From NCBI RefSeq assembly GCF_014279795.1, contig NZ_CP047945.1, positions 702,572-766,571 on the forward strand: DNA of 64,000 bases, in the 5' to 3' direction. Under the pieces are notes generated by a model. The model was not told the DNA's origin, did no database searches, and worked only from the letters and a program-made list of their open reading frames with translations. The DNA comes from Synechococcus sp. PROS-7-1 (GTDB lineage Bacteria; Cyanobacteriota; Cyanobacteriia; PCC-6307; Cyanobiaceae). Positions 34,029-41,350 of this stretch are shown piece by piece. Position 1 is the first letter of the stretch. Each line of letters opens with the position of its first letter. Position numbers and translations under genes: made by a program.

Positions 34029-35444
34029 ATGAGCAAGAAGTACGACGCCGGGGTCAAGGAGTACAGAGACACTTACTGGACTCCTGATTACGTTCCCCTC
34101 GATACCGACCTGCTGGCCTGCTTCAAGTGCACTGGTCAGGACGGTGTGCCCAAGGAAGAAGTTGCCGCTGCTGTGGCTGCTGAATCCTCCACCGGCACCT
34201 GGTCCACTGTGTGGTCCGAGCTCCTTACCGACCTCGACTTCTACAAGGGCCGTTGCTACCGCATCGAAGACGTCCCTGGTGACAAGGAGTCGTTCTATGC
34301 CTTCATCGCTTACCCCCTCGATCTGTTCGAAGAGGGTTCGATCACCAACGTTCTGACCTCCCTGGTTGGCAACGTGTTCGGCTTCAAGGCCCTGCGCCAT
34401 CTGCGTCTGGAAGACATCCGCTTCCCGATGGCGTTCATCAAGAGCTGCTATGGCCCGCCGAATGGCATCCAGGTCGAGCGTGACCGGATGAACAAGTACG
34501 GCCGTCCCCTGCTGGGTTGCACCATCAAGCCGAAGCTCGGCCTGAGCGGCAAGAACTACGGCCGTGTTGTCTATGAGTGCCTGCGTGGTGGTCTGGACTT
34601 CACCAAGGACGACGAGAACATCAACTCCCAGCCTTTCCAGCGTTGGCAGAACCGCTTCGAGTTCGTTGCGGAAGCCATCAAGCTGTCTGAGCAGGAGACC
34701 GGCGAGCGCAAGGGTCACTACCTCAACGTGACCGCCAACACTCCCGAAGAGATGTACGAGCGCGCTGAGTTCGCCAAAGAACTCGGCATGCCGATCATCA
34801 TGCACGACTTCATTACCGGTGGCTTCACCGCTAACACCGGTCTGTCGAAGTGGTGCCGCAAGAACGGCATGCTCCTGCACATCCACCGCGCCATGCACGC
34901 GGTGATCGACCGTCACCCCAAGCACGGCATCCACTTCCGCGTTCTCGCCAAGTGTCTGCGACTGTCCGGTGGTGACCAGCTCCACACCGGCACCGTGGTC
35001 GGAAAGCTGGAAGGTGATCGTCAGACCACCCTCGGCTACATCGACCAGCTGCGCGAATCCTTCGTGCCTGAAGACCGCAGCCGCGGCAACTTCTTTGATC
35101 AGGACTGGGGTTCCATGCCTGGCGTGTTCGCCGTCGCTTCCGGCGGTATCCACGTGTGGCACATGCCTGCCCTGGTCACCATCTTCGGCGACGACTCCGT
35201 CCTGCAGTTCGGTGGTGGTACCCACGGTCACCCCTGGGGTTCCGCTGCAGGTGCTGCGGCCAACCGCGTGGCCCTCGAGGCCTGCGTCAAGGCTCGCAAC
35301 GCCGGCCGTCATCTCGAGAAAGAGAGCCGCGACATCCTCATGGAAGCCGGCAAGCACAGCCCTGAGCTGGCCATCGCCCTCGAGACCTGGAAGGAGATCA
35401 AGTTCGAGTTCGACACCGTCGACAAGCTCGACGTTCAGAACTGA
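34029..35444 (+). CDS. cbbL: RuBisCO large subunit, form IA
   Basis: Carboxylates RuBP; packed inside the carboxysome. 471 residues. Lys167 in TIKPKLG is the catalytic base, and Lys193 in [11 protein letters not shown] is the carbamylated magnesium ligand. The N-terminus ([17 protein letters not shown]) and overall length mark the proteobacterial/alpha-cyanobacterial form IA, not the form IB of beta-cyanobacteria. Strong synonymous C/G bias indicates top-level expression. Assembly partners acRAF and CbbX are encoded 12 kb downstream. Confidence 0.98.
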
Positions 35445-35503: not shown

Positions 35504-35845
35504 ATGCCTTTCCAGAGCACAGTGGGTGACTATCAAACAGTCGCCACCCTGGAGACCTTCGGCTTTCTTCCGCCGATGACCCAGGACGAGATCTACGACC
35601 AGATCGCGTACATCATTGCCCAGGGTTGGAGCCCGCTCGTCGAGCACGTCCATCCCAGCAATTCCATGGCCACGTATTGGTCCTATTGGAAGCTTCCCTT
35701 CTTTGGAGAGAAGGACCTCAACGTTGTTGTGAGTGAGCTCGAGGCCTGCCATCGCGCCTACCCCGACCACCACGTGCGCATCGTCGGTTACGACGCTTAC
35801 ACCCAGAGCCAGGGTGCCTGCTTCGTGGTTTTCGAAGGACGCTGA
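35504..35845 (+). CDS. cbbS: RuBisCO small subunit, form IA
   Basis: 113 residues, caps the L8 core of RuBisCO. Recognisable features: the N-terminal QSTVGDYQTVATLETFGFLPP, the conserved EHVHPSNSMATYWSYWKLPFFG region and the C-terminal VRIVGYDAYTQSQGACFVVFEG. Short form without the extra loop of plant proteins. 59 bases after cbbL, across a hairpin. Confidence 0.97.
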   Translation: MPFQSTVGDYQTVATLETFGFLPPMTQDEIYDQIAYIIAQGWSPLVEHVHPSNSMATYWSYWKLPFFGEKDLNVVVSELEACHRAYPDHHVRIVGYDAYTQSQGACFVVFEGR

Positions 35846-35946: not shown

Positions 35947-38295
35947 ATGGCAAGACTTTCCAGTCGCGAACTCGCACTCGAGCGCCGCAAGGCGCTGACC
36001 ACCTCCGGTAAGAAGTCCTCTGTGGCTGCAGGAGATGGTGCCAATCGCGTGCGCACCGCCGCCGACGCACGTCCAACCCGCACGGATGCTGCCGCCGCTG
36101 TTGAGCCCACTGCTCCAGCCGTTGCTGCTCCGGTGAAACCCGCGGTGTCGTTCACACCAGCTTCCCCATCCCGCAGTTCTCAGGTGAAGCCCCAACGTCA
36201 TCCCAGCCGTGATCTGGTGCTGGCTCGCCGCGATGCACTGTCCCGCCGCGGCAAGATTGCTGATACCAGCCGCGATCGGAACCGCGCCGACGTTGCCCGT
36301 CAATCCCAGGTTTCGGCGCCAGCTGTTGAACAGACAAAGACCTGTGGCTGTGGTGGTCAGCGTGCTGCTGAACAAGCGCCGCTGAGTGCCCCTCCCACAA
36401 CTTTGAAGCCTCGCTCTGACCGCCGCAGTGCGACGCCCAAGCGTCGCGCCCTCGAGAATCCGAGCCGTGCCCTTGTGTTGGCTCGTCGCGATGCTATGTC
36501 GAAGCATGGCAAGACTGCCGGTAAGCAACCCACTAGCGCCGCCGCTGTGGCGCGACAGGCGAACCCAGATCTCACGAGCCGTGAGCTGGCTCAGCAAGTG
36601 CGTGAGCTCCGGGCGAAAGCCGGTGCCCGCAACAAGCAGAGCGCAGGTGTGACCCGTCCCTCCGGCCCTAATCGCCACGGCGCCAAGCAGGCTGCAGCAG
36701 CAGATGCCCATTGGAAGGTGGGTGAAAGCACGACCACTTCCGGCCAAACGGTCACGGGCACGCAAGCCAATCGTTCGGTGAAGACCACCGGCAACGAGGC
36801 CAGCACCTGCCGCTCCATCACCGGCACTGAATATCTAGGCGCTGAGGTGTTTCAGACGTTCTGCCAGCAGGCACCTGAGCCCACAACCCCCGCCAAAGTG
36901 CGCGTGTCCGCTACGAGCCATGGCAACCGGGTCACCGGCAACGAGGTTGGTCGCTCCGACAAGGTCACGGGTGATGAGCCCGGTACTTGCAAAAACGTAA
37001 CGGGTACTGAATACATCTCTGCCAACCAGTCCGCTGCCTATTGCGGTGGTGGCCAGGTCTCCCCACGCAAGGTTGGTCACAGCCTGACTCAGCAGGGTCG
37101 CCCCGTCAGTGGCGTGATGGTTGGCCGTTCGTCAAGCGTCACCGGAGATGAAGCCGGTGCTGGCCGCAGTCTCACTGGTGATCAATACCTTGGTTCTGAT
37201 CCCCTGCCCGAAGGTCGTCCTGCCCCCAAAGTCGGACTCTCGGGAACCCTCTCCGGCACGGGTGTCACCGGCACCATGGTGGGCCGGTCCTCCCAGGTGA
37301 CAGGCGATGAGTTCGGCTCATGTCATCGCGTCACCGGCGATCAATACATCAGTGCGGAACAGGTGAATTCCTTCTGCGGGGCCAAGCCCGAGCCCGAAGC
37401 TGCCAAAGTCGGCTTCAGCGTCACCAATCGCAACCAGGTGGTGAGCGGAACTCGCACTGGTCGCTCGGAGCGTGTCACCGGCGACGAGCCCGGCAGTTGT
37501 CAGGCCGTGACCGGTACGCCGTATGCAGGACTCGAGCAGGCCGGTCAGCACTGCGGTACTTCTGCTGTGCAGGCCATCCGCGAGCGCACCCCCGTGCGTC
37601 CTGGCACTCCTTCCGCTGCCATGACTGGAATCCAACCCGGCGTCGGCGGTGTGATGACCGGAGATCAGCGCGGTGCTTGCGAAGCGATCACTGGTACTCC
37701 TTATATGGGGGCAGATCAGCTCGCTCAGGCCTGCGGCAAGGATGCGCCAGCTGGTACCGACACCCATGGCCAAACCCCTGAAGGTGCGGCCTGGACACGG
37801 TTCAGTGTGATGTCTCCAGCGCGTGCCGCTCAGCAGCAGCGTGATGCCCAGGGTTCTGTCACTGGTACTTCCTATGAAGAGGGCAACCGCATCACCGGCC
37901 CTTTTGATATGGCCGGTGGCAAGGTCACCGGCACAGAGCAGTTCCGTTTCGATAACCGCGAATTCCAGCGTCGTCATTTTCAGGCCACACCCCCTGTGGC
38001 TGATGCACCGGTCACCATGGATGAAGATCAACATCCTGTTTCCCGTGTGACCGGCGAAGGTTCGGCCAGAAAAGTCACCGGTGACGACTGGGATCGTGGT
38101 GAGCACGTCACCGGTACAGAGGGTGCTTCGGCCCGTCGGCGCAATCCAAGTCGTACTGGACCGATGAGTGCCATGTCTCCCTTCGAGCGCAAGCGAAATG
38201 ATGCAATCGAATGGCCTGTTAGCCGCGTGACCGGTTCCAGCGGCAACACCGAGAAGGGTTCATTGATCACCGTCTCCGGCGGCGCGCGGGGCTGA
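35947..38295 (+). CDS. csoS2: Carboxysome scaffold protein CsoS2
   Basis: Intrinsically disordered scaffold that binds RuBisCO through its N-domain and the shell through its middle and C-domains. 782 residues. Four N-repeats of the type [SR]xxLxxRRxAxxxxGK lie at about 5-24, 86-104, 172-190 and 210-228. Middle repeats with V(T/S)G triads occur at about 258-306, 318-366, 376-420, 429-477, 488-536 and a degenerate 553-596; most have a Cys pair, but the third has none. The C-domain (615-782) ends with the conserved ITVSGGARG peptide. I see no clear -1 frameshift site of the kind that gives CsoS2A/B in Halothiobacillus. Confidence 0.96.
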   Translation: MARLSSRELALERRKALTTSGKKSSVAAGDGANRVRTAADARPTRTDAAAAVEPTAPAVAAPVKPAVSFTPASPSRSSQVKPQRHPSRDLVLARRDALSRRGKIADTSRDRNRADVARQSQVSAPAVEQTKTCGCGGQRAAEQAPLSAPPTTLKPRSDRRSATPKRRALENPSRALVLARRDAMSKHGKTAGKQPTSAAAVARQANPDLTSRELAQQVRELRAKAGARNKQSAGVTRPSGPNRHGAKQAAAADAHWKVGESTTTSGQTVTGTQANRSVKTTGNEASTCRSITGTEYLGAEVFQTFCQQAPEPTTPAKVRVSATSHGNRVTGNEVGRSDKVTGDEPGTCKNVTGTEYISANQSAAYCGGGQVSPRKVGHSLTQQGRPVSGVMVGRSSSVTGDEAGAGRSLTGDQYLGSDPLPEGRPAPKVGLSGTLSGTGVTGTMVGRSSQVTGDEFGSCHRVTGDQYISAEQVNSFCGAKPEPEAAKVGFSVTNRNQVVSGTRTGRSERVTGDEPGSCQAVTGTPYAGLEQAGQHCGTSAVQAIRERTPVRPGTPSAAMTGIQPGVGGVMTGDQRGACEAITGTPYMGADQLAQACGKDAPAGTDTHGQTPEGAAWTRFSVMSPARAAQQQRDAQGSVTGTSYEEGNRITGPFDMAGGKVTGTEQFRFDNREFQRRHFQATPPVADAPVTMDEDQHPVSRVTGEGSARKVTGDDWDRGEHVTGTEGASARRRNPSRTGPMSAMSPFERKRNDAIEWPVSRVTGSSGNTEKGSLITVSGGARG
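36718..37734 (+). repeat. CsoS2 middle-region protein repeats
   Basis: Six copies of a unit of about 50 codons. Each contains VGRS-xxVTGDE-like and (V/I)TG(T/D)xY(I/L/M)xA motifs. Cys pairs are at 288/306, 348/366, 459/477, 518/536 and 578/596; the third unit (376-420) lacks both. Confidence 0.85.
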
Positions 38296-38302
38296 TGGCC
38301 TG

Positions 38303-40051
38303 ATGGTTCGCTCCATGCCTTTTCGTGGCGGGCGACCTCAGGCGCCCACGGCTCCTACCCGGCGTCAGCTGTCCGCCCAGAACGGTCAACCGTCGACGTC
38401 CACCGGGGCTTCAATTCCATTAACCCGATCTGCCACACGATCTTCGGCGCTTCAACGCCGCCAAGCGTTGACAACTGCAGGCAAAGCGGCGGTTGTGAAT
38501 TCTGGATCCGTTACCGCCGGACGTGTTCGTACCCAGCAAGATCGTCCTCGTCGGTCGAACCAACAGCCTGGATGGGTTAAGAAGTCTTCTCAGCCATCGA
38601 AGTCGACTGTCAATCTCAGCCGCTCCTCTCTCCCTTGGGCTGTTGATCTCCATCCCCTCACGGATCAACAACAAAACACTCATCTCCAGGCTTACGAAAG
38701 CGAGGTGAAAGGCCGGTTTGATCGAATCGTTCCTGTCCTTAAGCAAGTGTCGGTCTTGCAGCATGAGCCCGATTTCATTGCGCAGGCGCAACGTCTGGCT
38801 CGGGCGGAACTGGGATTCGACTTGCCGGATCACATCCTCGAACAGTCCTGGGTTCGTCCCTTGGACATGCGAGCACTGTTTGCGTGGTGCGTTTTTCAAT
38901 CCCATCAAAAGTTCAGTGATCACTTCTTCCAGGAGGATCCGCTTCAAGGTGCAAACGGGGGTGCAGGTTCAGAGGCCTTTGAGGCTTTTCTTCTGGAGTG
39001 CGGATTCCATTTGCTGGATGTCACGCCTTGTGCTGACGGTCGATTGGCTCACACCATTGCCTACGCGTTGCGTATCCCTTTCAGTGCTGTTCGCCGTCGT
39101 TCCCATGCTGGCGCGATGTTTGATGTTGAAAACACGGTCAATCGCTGGGTGAAGACCGAACATCGACGGTTTCGTGAGCAGATTCCCAATGAAGCTCACG
39201 CCGCTACCCGTTATCTGAAAGTGGTGGCCTACCACTTCAGTTCAGTTGATCCTCTGCATCAAGGATGTGCAGCCCATGGAAGCGACGATTGTCTGGCGGC
39301 ATCCTCCGGACTGCGTCGCTTGCTTGATTTCAAGGAGGCCGTTGAAAACAGCTTTTGTTGCGGTGCGTCTGTTGATCTGCTTTTGATCGGTCTTGATACT
39401 GATACGGATGCCATTCGTGTTCATGTTCCCGATCAGAAGGGAGATATCCGTCTTGATCAATGGCTGTGTGGCAAAGCTCTGTACGACAGCACGGTGTCTC
39501 TGACACCACAGCAGGCGCACGAAGCGGTTGAAGCTGCTGTGAGTACTCATGTTGCATCGCCTCCCGACTCTGGGATGGTGCGCTTTATTTCTCGTTTGCT
39601 GATGAATAACTTCTCCCAGCAGGACTATGTCCTTTCCCAGCATCGAGGACCTTACCCCGATGCTGGGCATGCCGAACGATTTATTGGTGTTGGTATTGGA
39701 TTTAAGGAAGTACACCTCCGCAATCTCACGTATTTCGCCCATCTCGACACGGTTGAGCAGGGAGCTCCAGATCTGGATGTGGGAGTGAAAATCTTCAAGG
39801 GCCTGAATGTATCCCGCGATCTTCCGATCCCCGTTGTGGTGCGTTTCGACTACTCAGGAAAAGTTCCCGGTGCCCGTGACCGCGCGATTGCTGATTGCCA
39901 TCGCATCCAGTTGGCGATCAACGATCGTTATGCCCCTTTGGTGAGTGAGGGGCTTCTTCATACGCTGCTCACCATTCGCGACCGCGACCAGCCCCATTCC
40001 GCTGTTGTCGTTGGTTCAACCCTTGATCCAGTTCAACAGGAGGCTCACTGA
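38303..40051 (+). CDS. csoSCA: Carboxysomal carbonic anhydrase CsoSCA
   Basis: Dehydrates bicarbonate to CO2 inside the carboxysome. 582 residues; beta-carbonic-anhydrase-derived fold. Zinc ligands fit Cys243 (TPCADGR), His311 (AYHFSSVDP) and Cys322 (GCAAHGSDD), with the catalytic Asp245-Arg247 dyad. Residues 1-105 are basic and disordered-looking, and 44-86 (SALQRRQALTTAGK ... GRVRT) closely resemble the first N-repeat of CsoS2 including the downstream RVRT, which suggests direct RuBisCO docking. It starts 8 bases after csoS2. Confidence 0.95.
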   Translation: MVRSMPFRGGRPQAPTAPTRRQLSAQNGQPSTSTGASIPLTRSATRSSALQRRQALTTAGKAAVVNSGSVTAGRVRTQQDRPRRSNQQPGWVKKSSQPSKSTVNLSRSSLPWAVDLHPLTDQQQNTHLQAYESEVKGRFDRIVPVLKQVSVLQHEPDFIAQAQRLARAELGFDLPDHILEQSWVRPLDMRALFAWCVFQSHQKFSDHFFQEDPLQGANGGAGSEAFEAFLLECGFHLLDVTPCADGRLAHTIAYALRIPFSAVRRRSHAGAMFDVENTVNRWVKTEHRRFREQIPNEAHAATRYLKVVAYHFSSVDPLHQGCAAHGSDDCLAASSGLRRLLDFKEAVENSFCCGASVDLLLIGLDTDTDAIRVHVPDQKGDIRLDQWLCGKALYDSTVSLTPQQAHEAVEAAVSTHVASPPDSGMVRFISRLLMNNFSQQDYVLSQHRGPYPDAGHAERFIGVGIGFKEVHLRNLTYFAHLDTVEQGAPDLDVGVKIFKGLNVSRDLPIPVVVRFDYSGKVPGARDRAIADCHRIQLAINDRYAPLVSEGLLHTLLTIRDRDQPHSAVVVGSTLDPVQQEAH

Positions 40052-40702: not shown

Positions 40703-41350
40703 ATGGCCACCTCTTCTTCTTCCCCTCGTCGCCGCACCACCCGCAGCAGTGCTGCAGCGAACAAGACTGTTGATGTGAAGCCTGTGGCGACTCCCGCTTC
40801 CACCTCTCCAGTTCCCGCTTCCACCTCTCCAGTTCCCGCTTCTAGCTCTCCAGCCCCGGCGGCCAGCTCCTCCCCAGCGGCATCGACTGGTTCGACAGCT
40901 GCCAGCTCAACCTCCACGCGTTCCAGCGCCAGTCGATCCACGTCGGGGACGACCCGTCGCTCCACGACCCGTCGAAGTGCAGCCACAGGTTCCGGAGGGA
41001 GAGGGAGCGTGGCAAAGCCCGCCCCGACATCCCCTGCACCTGCTGCTCAGCCCATTCAGGGGATCGCTCTGGGCATGATTGAGACCCGGGGCATGGTGCC
41101 TGCGATCGAGGCTGCTGATGCCATGACCAAGGCAGCAGAGGTTTGTCTGATTAGTCGTGAGTACGTCGGTGGCGGTTACGTGACCGTGATGGTGCGCGGA
41201 GAGACTGGCGCTGTGAATGCTGCGGTGCGTGCCGGGGCTGACGCCTGCGAGAGGGTTGGAGACGGCCTCGTTGCGGCTCACATCATCGCCAGGCCGCACC
41301 AGGAAGTGGAACCGGCCCTTATCGCGACCAATGTGCGACGACGTAGTTGA
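40703..41350 (+). CDS. csoS1E: BMC-domain shell protein with long low-complexity N-terminus (CsoS1E)
   Basis: 215 residues. The C-terminal ~97 residues (from QGIALGMIETRG, about 119) are a BMC hexamer domain almost identical to CsoS1A, with pore segment REYVGGGYVTV. Residues 1-118 are a disordered basic region rich in Ser, Thr, Ala, Pro and Arg, with near-perfect TSPVPAS repeats encoded by 21-base DNA repeats. The extension would project from a shell facet and may bind RuBisCO, nucleic acid or other shell layers; this is inference. Last gene of the shell set. Confidence 0.9.
   Translation: MATSSSSPRRRTTRSSAAANKTVDVKPVATPASTSPVPASTSPVPASSSPAPAASSSPAASTGSTAASSTSTRSSASRSTSGTTRRSTTRRSAATGSGGRGSVAKPAPTSPAPAAQPIQGIALGMIETRGMVPAIEAADAMTKAAEVCLISREYVGGGYVTVMVRGETGAVNAAVRAGADACERVGDGLVAAHIIARPHQEVEPALIATNVRRRS
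40793..40853 (+). repeat. 21-base tandem repeat in csoS1E
   Basis: Two exact copies of a 21-base unit at 40793-40813 and 40814-40834, and a degenerate third at 40835-40853. It encodes the PASTSPV repeat of the N-terminal extension, a likely site of length variation between strains. Confidence 0.85.

Follow-up and report, generated by a model that had tools for sequence, protein, structure and literature searches.

A CsoS2 N1-type repeat in the tail of marine Synechococcus CsoSCA as a candidate Rubisco hook

In the available text of Blikstad et al. (2023; PMC10614612), the N-terminal tail of the carbonic anhydrase CsoSCA from Halothiobacillus neapolitanus (Hn) is described as both needed and sufficient for encapsulation. 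The tail binds Rubisco, with a KD of 1.2 nM for a CsoSCA-MBP fusion, at the same site as the scaffold protein CsoS2 and in competition with it. According to the same text, structural knowledge of how carbonic anhydrase enters alpha-carboxysomes is confined to Halothiobacillus, the motif used there lacks conservation, and CsoSCA tails as a group yielded no consensus. CsoSCA is reported to be hexameric in Cyanobium and Halothiobacillus (available text of PMC11086599 and PMC12646314), and Pulsford et al. (PMC11086599, same part) expected a single binding motif per tail and described motif conservation as limited.

A CsoS2 motif in CsoSCA has been noted before. Blikstad et al. found it in 'a handful' of CsoSCA, which they assigned to Prochlorococcus, and suggested an evolutionary relationship. 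As far as their texts are available, this one sentence in PMC10614612 is the only report of it in the open-licence PMC literature (supplements excluded), and reviews from 2026 do not mention it; the N1 repeat and the RVR tail discussed below do not appear in the available part of PMC10614612. The presence of a CsoS2 motif in some CsoSCA is, then, already published; the clade-wide distribution, the N1 origin with its RVR tail, the selection and the natural deletions are new.

The window, which is the whole 64,000-nucleotide stretch of Synechococcus sp. PROS-7-1 DNA that was analysed, carries the gene order cbbL-cbbS-csoS2-csoSCA in one cso operon (Table 1). As the first-pass annotation had stated, csoSCA lies directly behind csoS2, starting at 38303 where csoS2 ends at 38295. 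The identity of CsoSCA is clear from its three family domains, PF20687, PF20686 and PF08936 (CsoSCA_N/cat/C), all of which exceed the Pfam cut-offs, and from a TIGR02701 score of 674 bits (cut-off 241). Its tail comprises residues 1-116, the folded CsoSCA_N domain beginning at residue 117, and contains the general cyanobacterial motif PTAPx[R/K]R as PTAPTRR (residues 15-21). Downstream, at 40703-41350, a BMC-like frame carries a long N-terminal extension rich in Ser, Pro and Ala and may be csoS1E; it gave no match with the N1 profile described below.

Table 1 Features of the cso locus, in window positions
Feature	Position	Strand	Detail
cbbL, form IA Rubisco large subunit, presumed binding partner	34029..35444	+	
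cbbS, Rubisco small subunit, presumed binding partner	35504..35845	+	
csoS2, carboxysome scaffold	35947..38295	+	782 aa; NF050159 1265 bits, cut-off 1100
CsoS2 N1 repeat core RELALERRKALTTSGK, likely source type	35965..36012	+	residues 7-22
CsoS2 NRVRTAADARPTR behind N1	36043..36081	+	residues 33-45
CsoS2 N2 repeat core	36208..36255	+	residues 88-103
CsoS2 N3 repeat core	36466..36513	+	residues 174-189
csoSCA, carboxysome shell carbonic anhydrase	38303..40051	+	582 aa
CsoSCA PTAPTRRQL, general cyanobacterial PTAPx[R/K]R motif	38345..38371	+	residues 15-23; motif named in PMC10614612
CsoSCA CsoS2-N1-type repeat core RSSALQRRQALTTAGK	38438..38485	+	residues 46-61
CsoSCA spacer	38486..38518	+	residues 62-72
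CsoSCA RVR tail GRVRTQQDRPRR	38519..38554	+	residues 73-84; matches CsoS2 NRVRTAADARPTR
CsoSCA QPGWVKK, second clade-specific conserved stretch	38564..38584	+	residues 88-94

Residues 46-84 of CsoSCA (window 38438-38554) match the CsoS2 N1 repeat together with the RVRT stretch behind it. The alignment proposed in the first-pass annotation, CsoSCA 44-86 with CsoS2 5-45, proved correct in its coordinates as well, the genome profile match running from 38432 to 38542. In the core, R46 to K61 is paired with R7 to K22, with SSALQ before the RR pair and QALTTA before GK in CsoSCA where CsoS2 has ELALE and KALTTS, and the motif RxxxxxRRxxxxxxGK taken from PMC10614612 is matched exactly. Further on, G73 to R84 is paired with N33 to R45.

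Profiles of the N1-N4 repeats were built from the CsoS2 proteins of 102 loci outside g1, the genus of the window, and g5, its sister genus, and 9,660 shuffled tails (161 x 60) provided the control. One locus, L183, was excluded from the N1-N4 and N1-tail profile searches and from the trees, and 112 tails from outside g1/g5 were searched. An N-repeat profile did hit the CsoSCA of the window above background, as the earlier reading would have it: the N1 profile gave 32.7 bits over model positions 5-40, against 13.0 bits for the best shuffle. The same threshold was exceeded by 46 of the 49 g1/g5 tails (median 35.8 bits) and by none of the other 112. With the N2 profile 46/49 tails again exceeded the best shuffle (9.8 bits), the median being only 15.1 bits and the match in the window confined to the core; with N3 the median was 8.7 bits and 7/49 tails exceeded its best shuffle, and with N4 none of the 49 rose above the shuffles.

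The whole genome of the window was then searched with a profile of 20 N1 sequences from other genera. CsoS2 N1 ranked first (E 3.0e-21) and CsoSCA second (E 4.9e-7), ahead of CsoS2 N3 (E 1.0e-4) and N2 (E 4.2e-4). The first match outside the cso operon was one frame at E 0.37, below which no N-repeat protein besides CsoS2 and CsoSCA was found. NF050159, the NCBIfam model of cyanobacterial CsoS2, also matched CsoSCA (residues 42-102 on model positions 3-63, E 2.3e-5); at 23.4 bits against a cut-off of 1100, and covering positions 3-63 of 795, CsoSCA is not a full-length member of that family. At an E limit of 10, a phmmer search of 177,635 PDB sequences with a 46-residue CsoSCA peptide returned four matches; the best three were the CsoS2 proteins of 8wxb, 8b12 and 9ly8. 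Their whole-sequence E values of 0.00088, 0.0019 and 0.015 sum several repeats, and the best single stretches (13.5-15.5 bits, E 0.15-0.66) are not significant alone. The strict motif itself occurred in 2 of the 9,660 shuffled tails. A chance match is ruled out by the shuffles, the genome-wide search, the NF050159 match and this low frequency.

The claim that the match takes in both an N-repeat core and an extra RVRT segment held for the core throughout and for the segment in part of the set. When cores alone were compared, N1 was the top model in 46/46, with a mean of 30.0 bits versus 17.9 and 7.3, the repeats having been sorted into N2 and N3 by a rough rule of position and letters. When the core was removed and an N1-tail model used, 28/46 tails exceeded the 99% shuffle level and 13/46 the best of all shuffles; the RVR tail of the window scored 6.5 bits, between the 99% (5.1) and 99.9% (8.3) levels. 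Between GK and R[VIL]R lie the spacer and G73, exactly 12 residues in 45 of the 46 motif-bearing CsoSCA, and the 46th (L070) has RTR at the same distance. In CsoS2 N1 the gap to RVR is 11 residues in 128 and 10 in 15 of the 147 measured. These comparisons show a likeness specific to CsoS2 N1, beyond a general resemblance to N-repeats.

The resemblance has its limits. N-repeats have been reported to carry an acidic residue after the first basic one in all but one case (PMC4499774). In the window this residue is Ser47, and it is acidic in 4/46 CsoSCA. The missing acidic residue was not taken as excluding an N-repeat because the position varies in CsoS2 too, with Ala in 44/144 g1/g5 repeats and, outside these genera, in 85 of at least 308. 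The CsoSCA segment is filed as N1-derived and not as a full N-repeat. It shares with alpha-cyanobacterial CsoS2 N-repeats the RxxxxxRRxxxxxxGK core, a similar gap to an RVR[TS]xxD tail and the matches with the N1 profile and NF050159. It differs in having mostly lost the acidic neighbour of the first Arg, in its gap of 12 rather than 10-11 residues and in having no shell-binding part. CsoS2 usually holds three N-repeats within a scaffold (three strict copies in 133/150), whereas CsoSCA holds one within an enzyme.

CsoSCA was found in 361 of 400 Cyanobiaceae genomes searched, and 162 loci were examined. Besides the window, these came from 27 of the remaining 28 g1 genomes with a match, 21 of 33 from g5, and 113 of 299 others picked to span 47 further genera. 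The strict motif was present in 46 of the 49 CsoSCA from g1/g5 and in none of the 113 from the other 47 genera, the sample being 162 of 361 genomes with exceptions possible among the remaining 199. The conservation across CsoSCA orthologues on which the earlier note had staked its reading is thus near-universal within g1/g5 and absent from the other genera sampled. All 46 motif-bearing tails start with M1-V2. Named Synechococcus with the motif are WH7803, UW105, UW140, AG-673-F03 and AG-679-A04, together with one MAG from an uncultured organism. In the Prochlorococcus MAG AG-894-F05 the motif is missing and the tail resembles those of g18, and it is partly from this tail type that g18 and similar small-genome genera are here read as Prochlorococcus. 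The 'handful' assigned to Prochlorococcus in the available text of PMC10614612 does not agree with the present sample, where 46/49 genomes of the marine Synechococcus type have the motif and the genera of the Prochlorococcus type are all without it. Judged by sequence, the CsoS2-N1 cassette is real, conserved and clade-defining; the class of mechanism is already known.

An apparent case outside the clade (L183, genome G149) turned out to be the csoS2 frame, the true csoSCA tail being without the motif. No match with CsoSCA was obtained in phage records, and the strict motif was absent from proteobacterial CsoSCA tails on two plasmids (Thiodictyon and Nitrobacter). Capture of other CsoS2 pieces in other genera was also considered and rejected: when each tail was compared with the N-region of its own CsoS2, 1/101 from outside g1/g5 beat all 100 shuffles, about as expected by chance. 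The comparison, which 42/48 g1/g5 tails pass, is less sensitive than the profiles. In two g10 tails (L152 and L153) a stretch RPSGPR resembles the RPSGPN behind the last CsoS2 N-repeat (N4 tail), with scores of 12.5 and 12.2 bits. The best shuffle reached 10.0, a level that only these 2 of the 112 others exceed. It is possibly another small borrowing from CsoS2, although the signal is too weak for a claim. A second stretch, of the pattern Q[PQ]xW[VIL][RK][RK] and represented by QPGWVKK in the window, lies behind the cassette in 42/49 g1/g5 tails and in 0/113 others; it persists in all three genomes that lack the core.

The cassette is kept by selection, its residues being invariant while their codons vary. 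R46, R52, R53, A55, L56, G60, K61, A63, R74 and R76 never change among the 46 motif-bearing tails, and all of these except A63 were seen to use 2-6 codons each across the 46 genomes, with six each for R52, R53 and R76. Values of pN/pS, computed over 67 close pairs, were 0.03 for PTAPTRRQL (the lowest of the tail), 0.11 for QPGWVRR, 0.12 for the core, 0.14 for the RVR tail, 0.18 for the spacer, 0.22 for both the leader and the distal part, and 0.47 for the linker before the core. The whole tail is therefore somewhat constrained and the core is clearly distinct only from the linker; its smaller contrast with the spacer, leader and distal part is counted against the explanation preferred below.

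An origin from the start of csoS2, as suggested in the first-pass annotation, remains the best account, provided that the duplication is taken as old. Over the 48 bases (16 codons) of the core, CsoSCA and CsoS2 DNA are 0.626 identical within a genome and 0.633 between genomes (45 genomes). As cores from one genome are no closer than cores from different genomes, the copy must be old, with an independent evolution since, and neither a recent duplication within the cluster nor gene conversion is accepted. Mean DNA identity of the core is 0.66 among CsoSCA and 0.86 among CsoS2 N1, showing that the CsoSCA copy evolved faster.

In a concatenated tree (CsoSCA domain, CbbL and the middle and C-terminal parts of CsoS2; 50 rows, quick search) g1 and g5 form one clade with SH-aLRT support of 98. 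Motif-less g26 (L150) falls outside it and the Prochlorococcus-like genera lie beyond; on this tree a single gain and two losses of the motif, three changes in all, suffice. In a tree of the CsoSCA domain only (120 rows) g1 and g5 are not one clade, Prochlorococcus-like rows fall inside g1/g5 with unstarred support of 90-93, and four changes are needed. Since this tree nests those rows in g1/g5, the motif may instead have been gained in an older ancestor and lost again in Prochlorococcus. A single gain, and the direction from csoS2 to csoSCA, are suggested by parsimony and by the wider distribution of N1 in CsoS2.

The core has been lost from 3 of the 49 g1/g5 genomes in two deletion events, both in frame. 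In L061 and L063 PTAPTRRQLQ is joined directly to QPAW[VI]RR, while L081 has lost the core and kept GGGRVRS and QPGWVRR; PTAPTRRQL survives in all three. The best reading is one ancient copy of the csoS2 5' end, kept by selection and lost at least twice, with no gene conversion. Nearly every examined genome of one marine Synechococcus clade has a motif whose structure and partner are known, and the natural deletions are ready controls, so that CsoSCA recruitment in these organisms should be simple to test directly.

It is probable that the CsoSCA tail holds a selection-kept copy of N1 which acts as a Rubisco hook beside PTAPxRR. The csoS2 5' end would have been copied once into the neighbouring csoSCA in the ancestor of the g1 plus g5 marine Synechococcus clade and then retained by selection, leaving a short linear motif in a disordered tail: a helical RxxxxxRRxxxxxxGK core, a 12-residue spacer and an RVRT tail. 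The core is predicted to fold onto L8S8 Rubisco at the CsoS2 site, and the carbonic anhydrase would be drawn into the Rubisco-CsoS2 condensate through the scaffold's own hook, with the six tails of a CsoSCA hexamer acting together to give avidity. If so, this is a case of an enzyme gaining the docking motif of a scaffold from the neighbouring gene. The arrangement would resemble that of the H. neapolitanus CsoSCA peptide in having an N-terminal tail ahead of the folded domain and, presumably, the same Rubisco site. In the available text of PMC10614612, however, the H. neapolitanus protein uses PRLDLIEQA, which lies deeper in the groove, and that string is absent from the tail in the window.

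The cassette would add to the older PTAPxRR motif and not replace it, although the one binding motif per tail that Pulsford et al. (PMC11086599) expected speaks against two. Because CsoSCA also keeps this general motif, the N1 repeat is probably not the only tether; the core is most likely an alternative hook that adds to PTAPTRR, and its absence from three genomes fits an accessory or redundant role and means that it is not indispensable. On a different weighting, less likely than not, it is PTAPTRR that really tethers every alpha-cyanobacterial CsoSCA to Rubisco, and the cassette is an avidity-tuning accessory or a dying relic. P[TS]AP followed after one or two residues by R/K is present in 48/49 g1/g5 and 103/113 other tails, its pN/pS is the lowest in the tail and it outlasts the core in the three deletions. 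A dying relic is nevertheless hard to square with R52, R53, L56, G60 and K61 being kept in 46/46 genomes while using as many as six codons. In its accessory form this reading shares ground with the preferred explanation, and the odds given to the readings here do not sum to one.

It is unlikely that CsoSCA in marine Synechococcus serves both as an enzyme and as a second scaffold, with two Rubisco motifs per tail (PTAPTRR and the N1 cassette) and up to twelve sites per hexamer cross-linking Rubisco and competing with CsoS2 for the same pocket. If it did, carboxysomes of clades with the cassette deleted would be expected to differ in their size, their packing or the amount of carbonic anhydrase.

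The Rubisco residues that the hook would meet were also compared. Of those named in PMC10614612, CbbL D99 is kept in 153 and CbbS Y96 in 158 alpha-cyanobacterial sequences. CbbL D26, F346 and D360 and CbbS D94, reportedly further contact residues (Oltrogge 2020), are kept wherever aligned, except for F346Y in 3. The exception, a conservative change, is the place of Hn CbbL Y72 (codon 71 of cbbL in the window), called conserved in alpha-carboxysome Rubisco in the available text of PMC10614612: all 153 alpha-cyanobacterial CbbL that have a residue at this place carry Phe, with 2 gaps. A Phe can still stack on arginine but lacks the hydroxyl needed for the bond made in the Hn CsoSCA mode. That Y72F favours a CsoS2-type motif in cyanobacteria is speculation, and the more so because the Hn R23A substitution changed the binding constants little (17 and 130 nM versus 33 and 80 nM; PMC10614612, Table 1, available part).

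These residues also bear on the idea that the cassette binds a partner other than Rubisco, such as a shell protein, CsoS2 or CsoSCA itself, or that it regulates the enzyme. Hn CsoSCA is reported also to bind the shell protein CsoS1A (available text of PMC12646314), and the acidic residue of N1 is lost in 42/46 CsoSCA. The residues kept are nevertheless those of the Rubisco-binding motif RxxxxxRRxxxxxxGK as published in the available text of PMC10614612, and the Rubisco residues checked are all kept apart from Y72F, making a non-Rubisco role very unlikely.

Convergence, with RR...GK arising independently by selection on a disordered tail and no csoS2 copy, is the least probable account: the core motifs are short, the two cores have a mean DNA identity of only 63% and an unrelated motif takes H. 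neapolitanus CsoSCA to the CsoS2 site on Rubisco (PMC10614612, available text), but the match is collinear over about 36 residues and far better with N1 than with N2-N4, the RVR tail follows at a constant spacing (12 residues for CsoSCA and 10-11 for 143/147 CsoS2), N1 is the top model for every core, a tail signal persists without the core in part of the set, and L150, from the sister group of g1 plus g5 in the concatenated tree, shows no partial motif.

Two observations concern csoS2 itself. In L150 (genome G025, g26) the CsoS2 N-region contains a perfect head-to-tail copy of about 87 residues that holds an N-repeat; either an extra repeat was gained recently or the assembly is at fault. In three g9 loci (L183, L184 and L185) csoSCA lies in the csoS2 frame, its ATG separated from csoS2 by no more than one TGA and a TTC codon. 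Leaving L183 aside, csoS2 and csoSCA were in the same frame in 14 of 160 loci compared, and read-through of the stop would there give a fusion.
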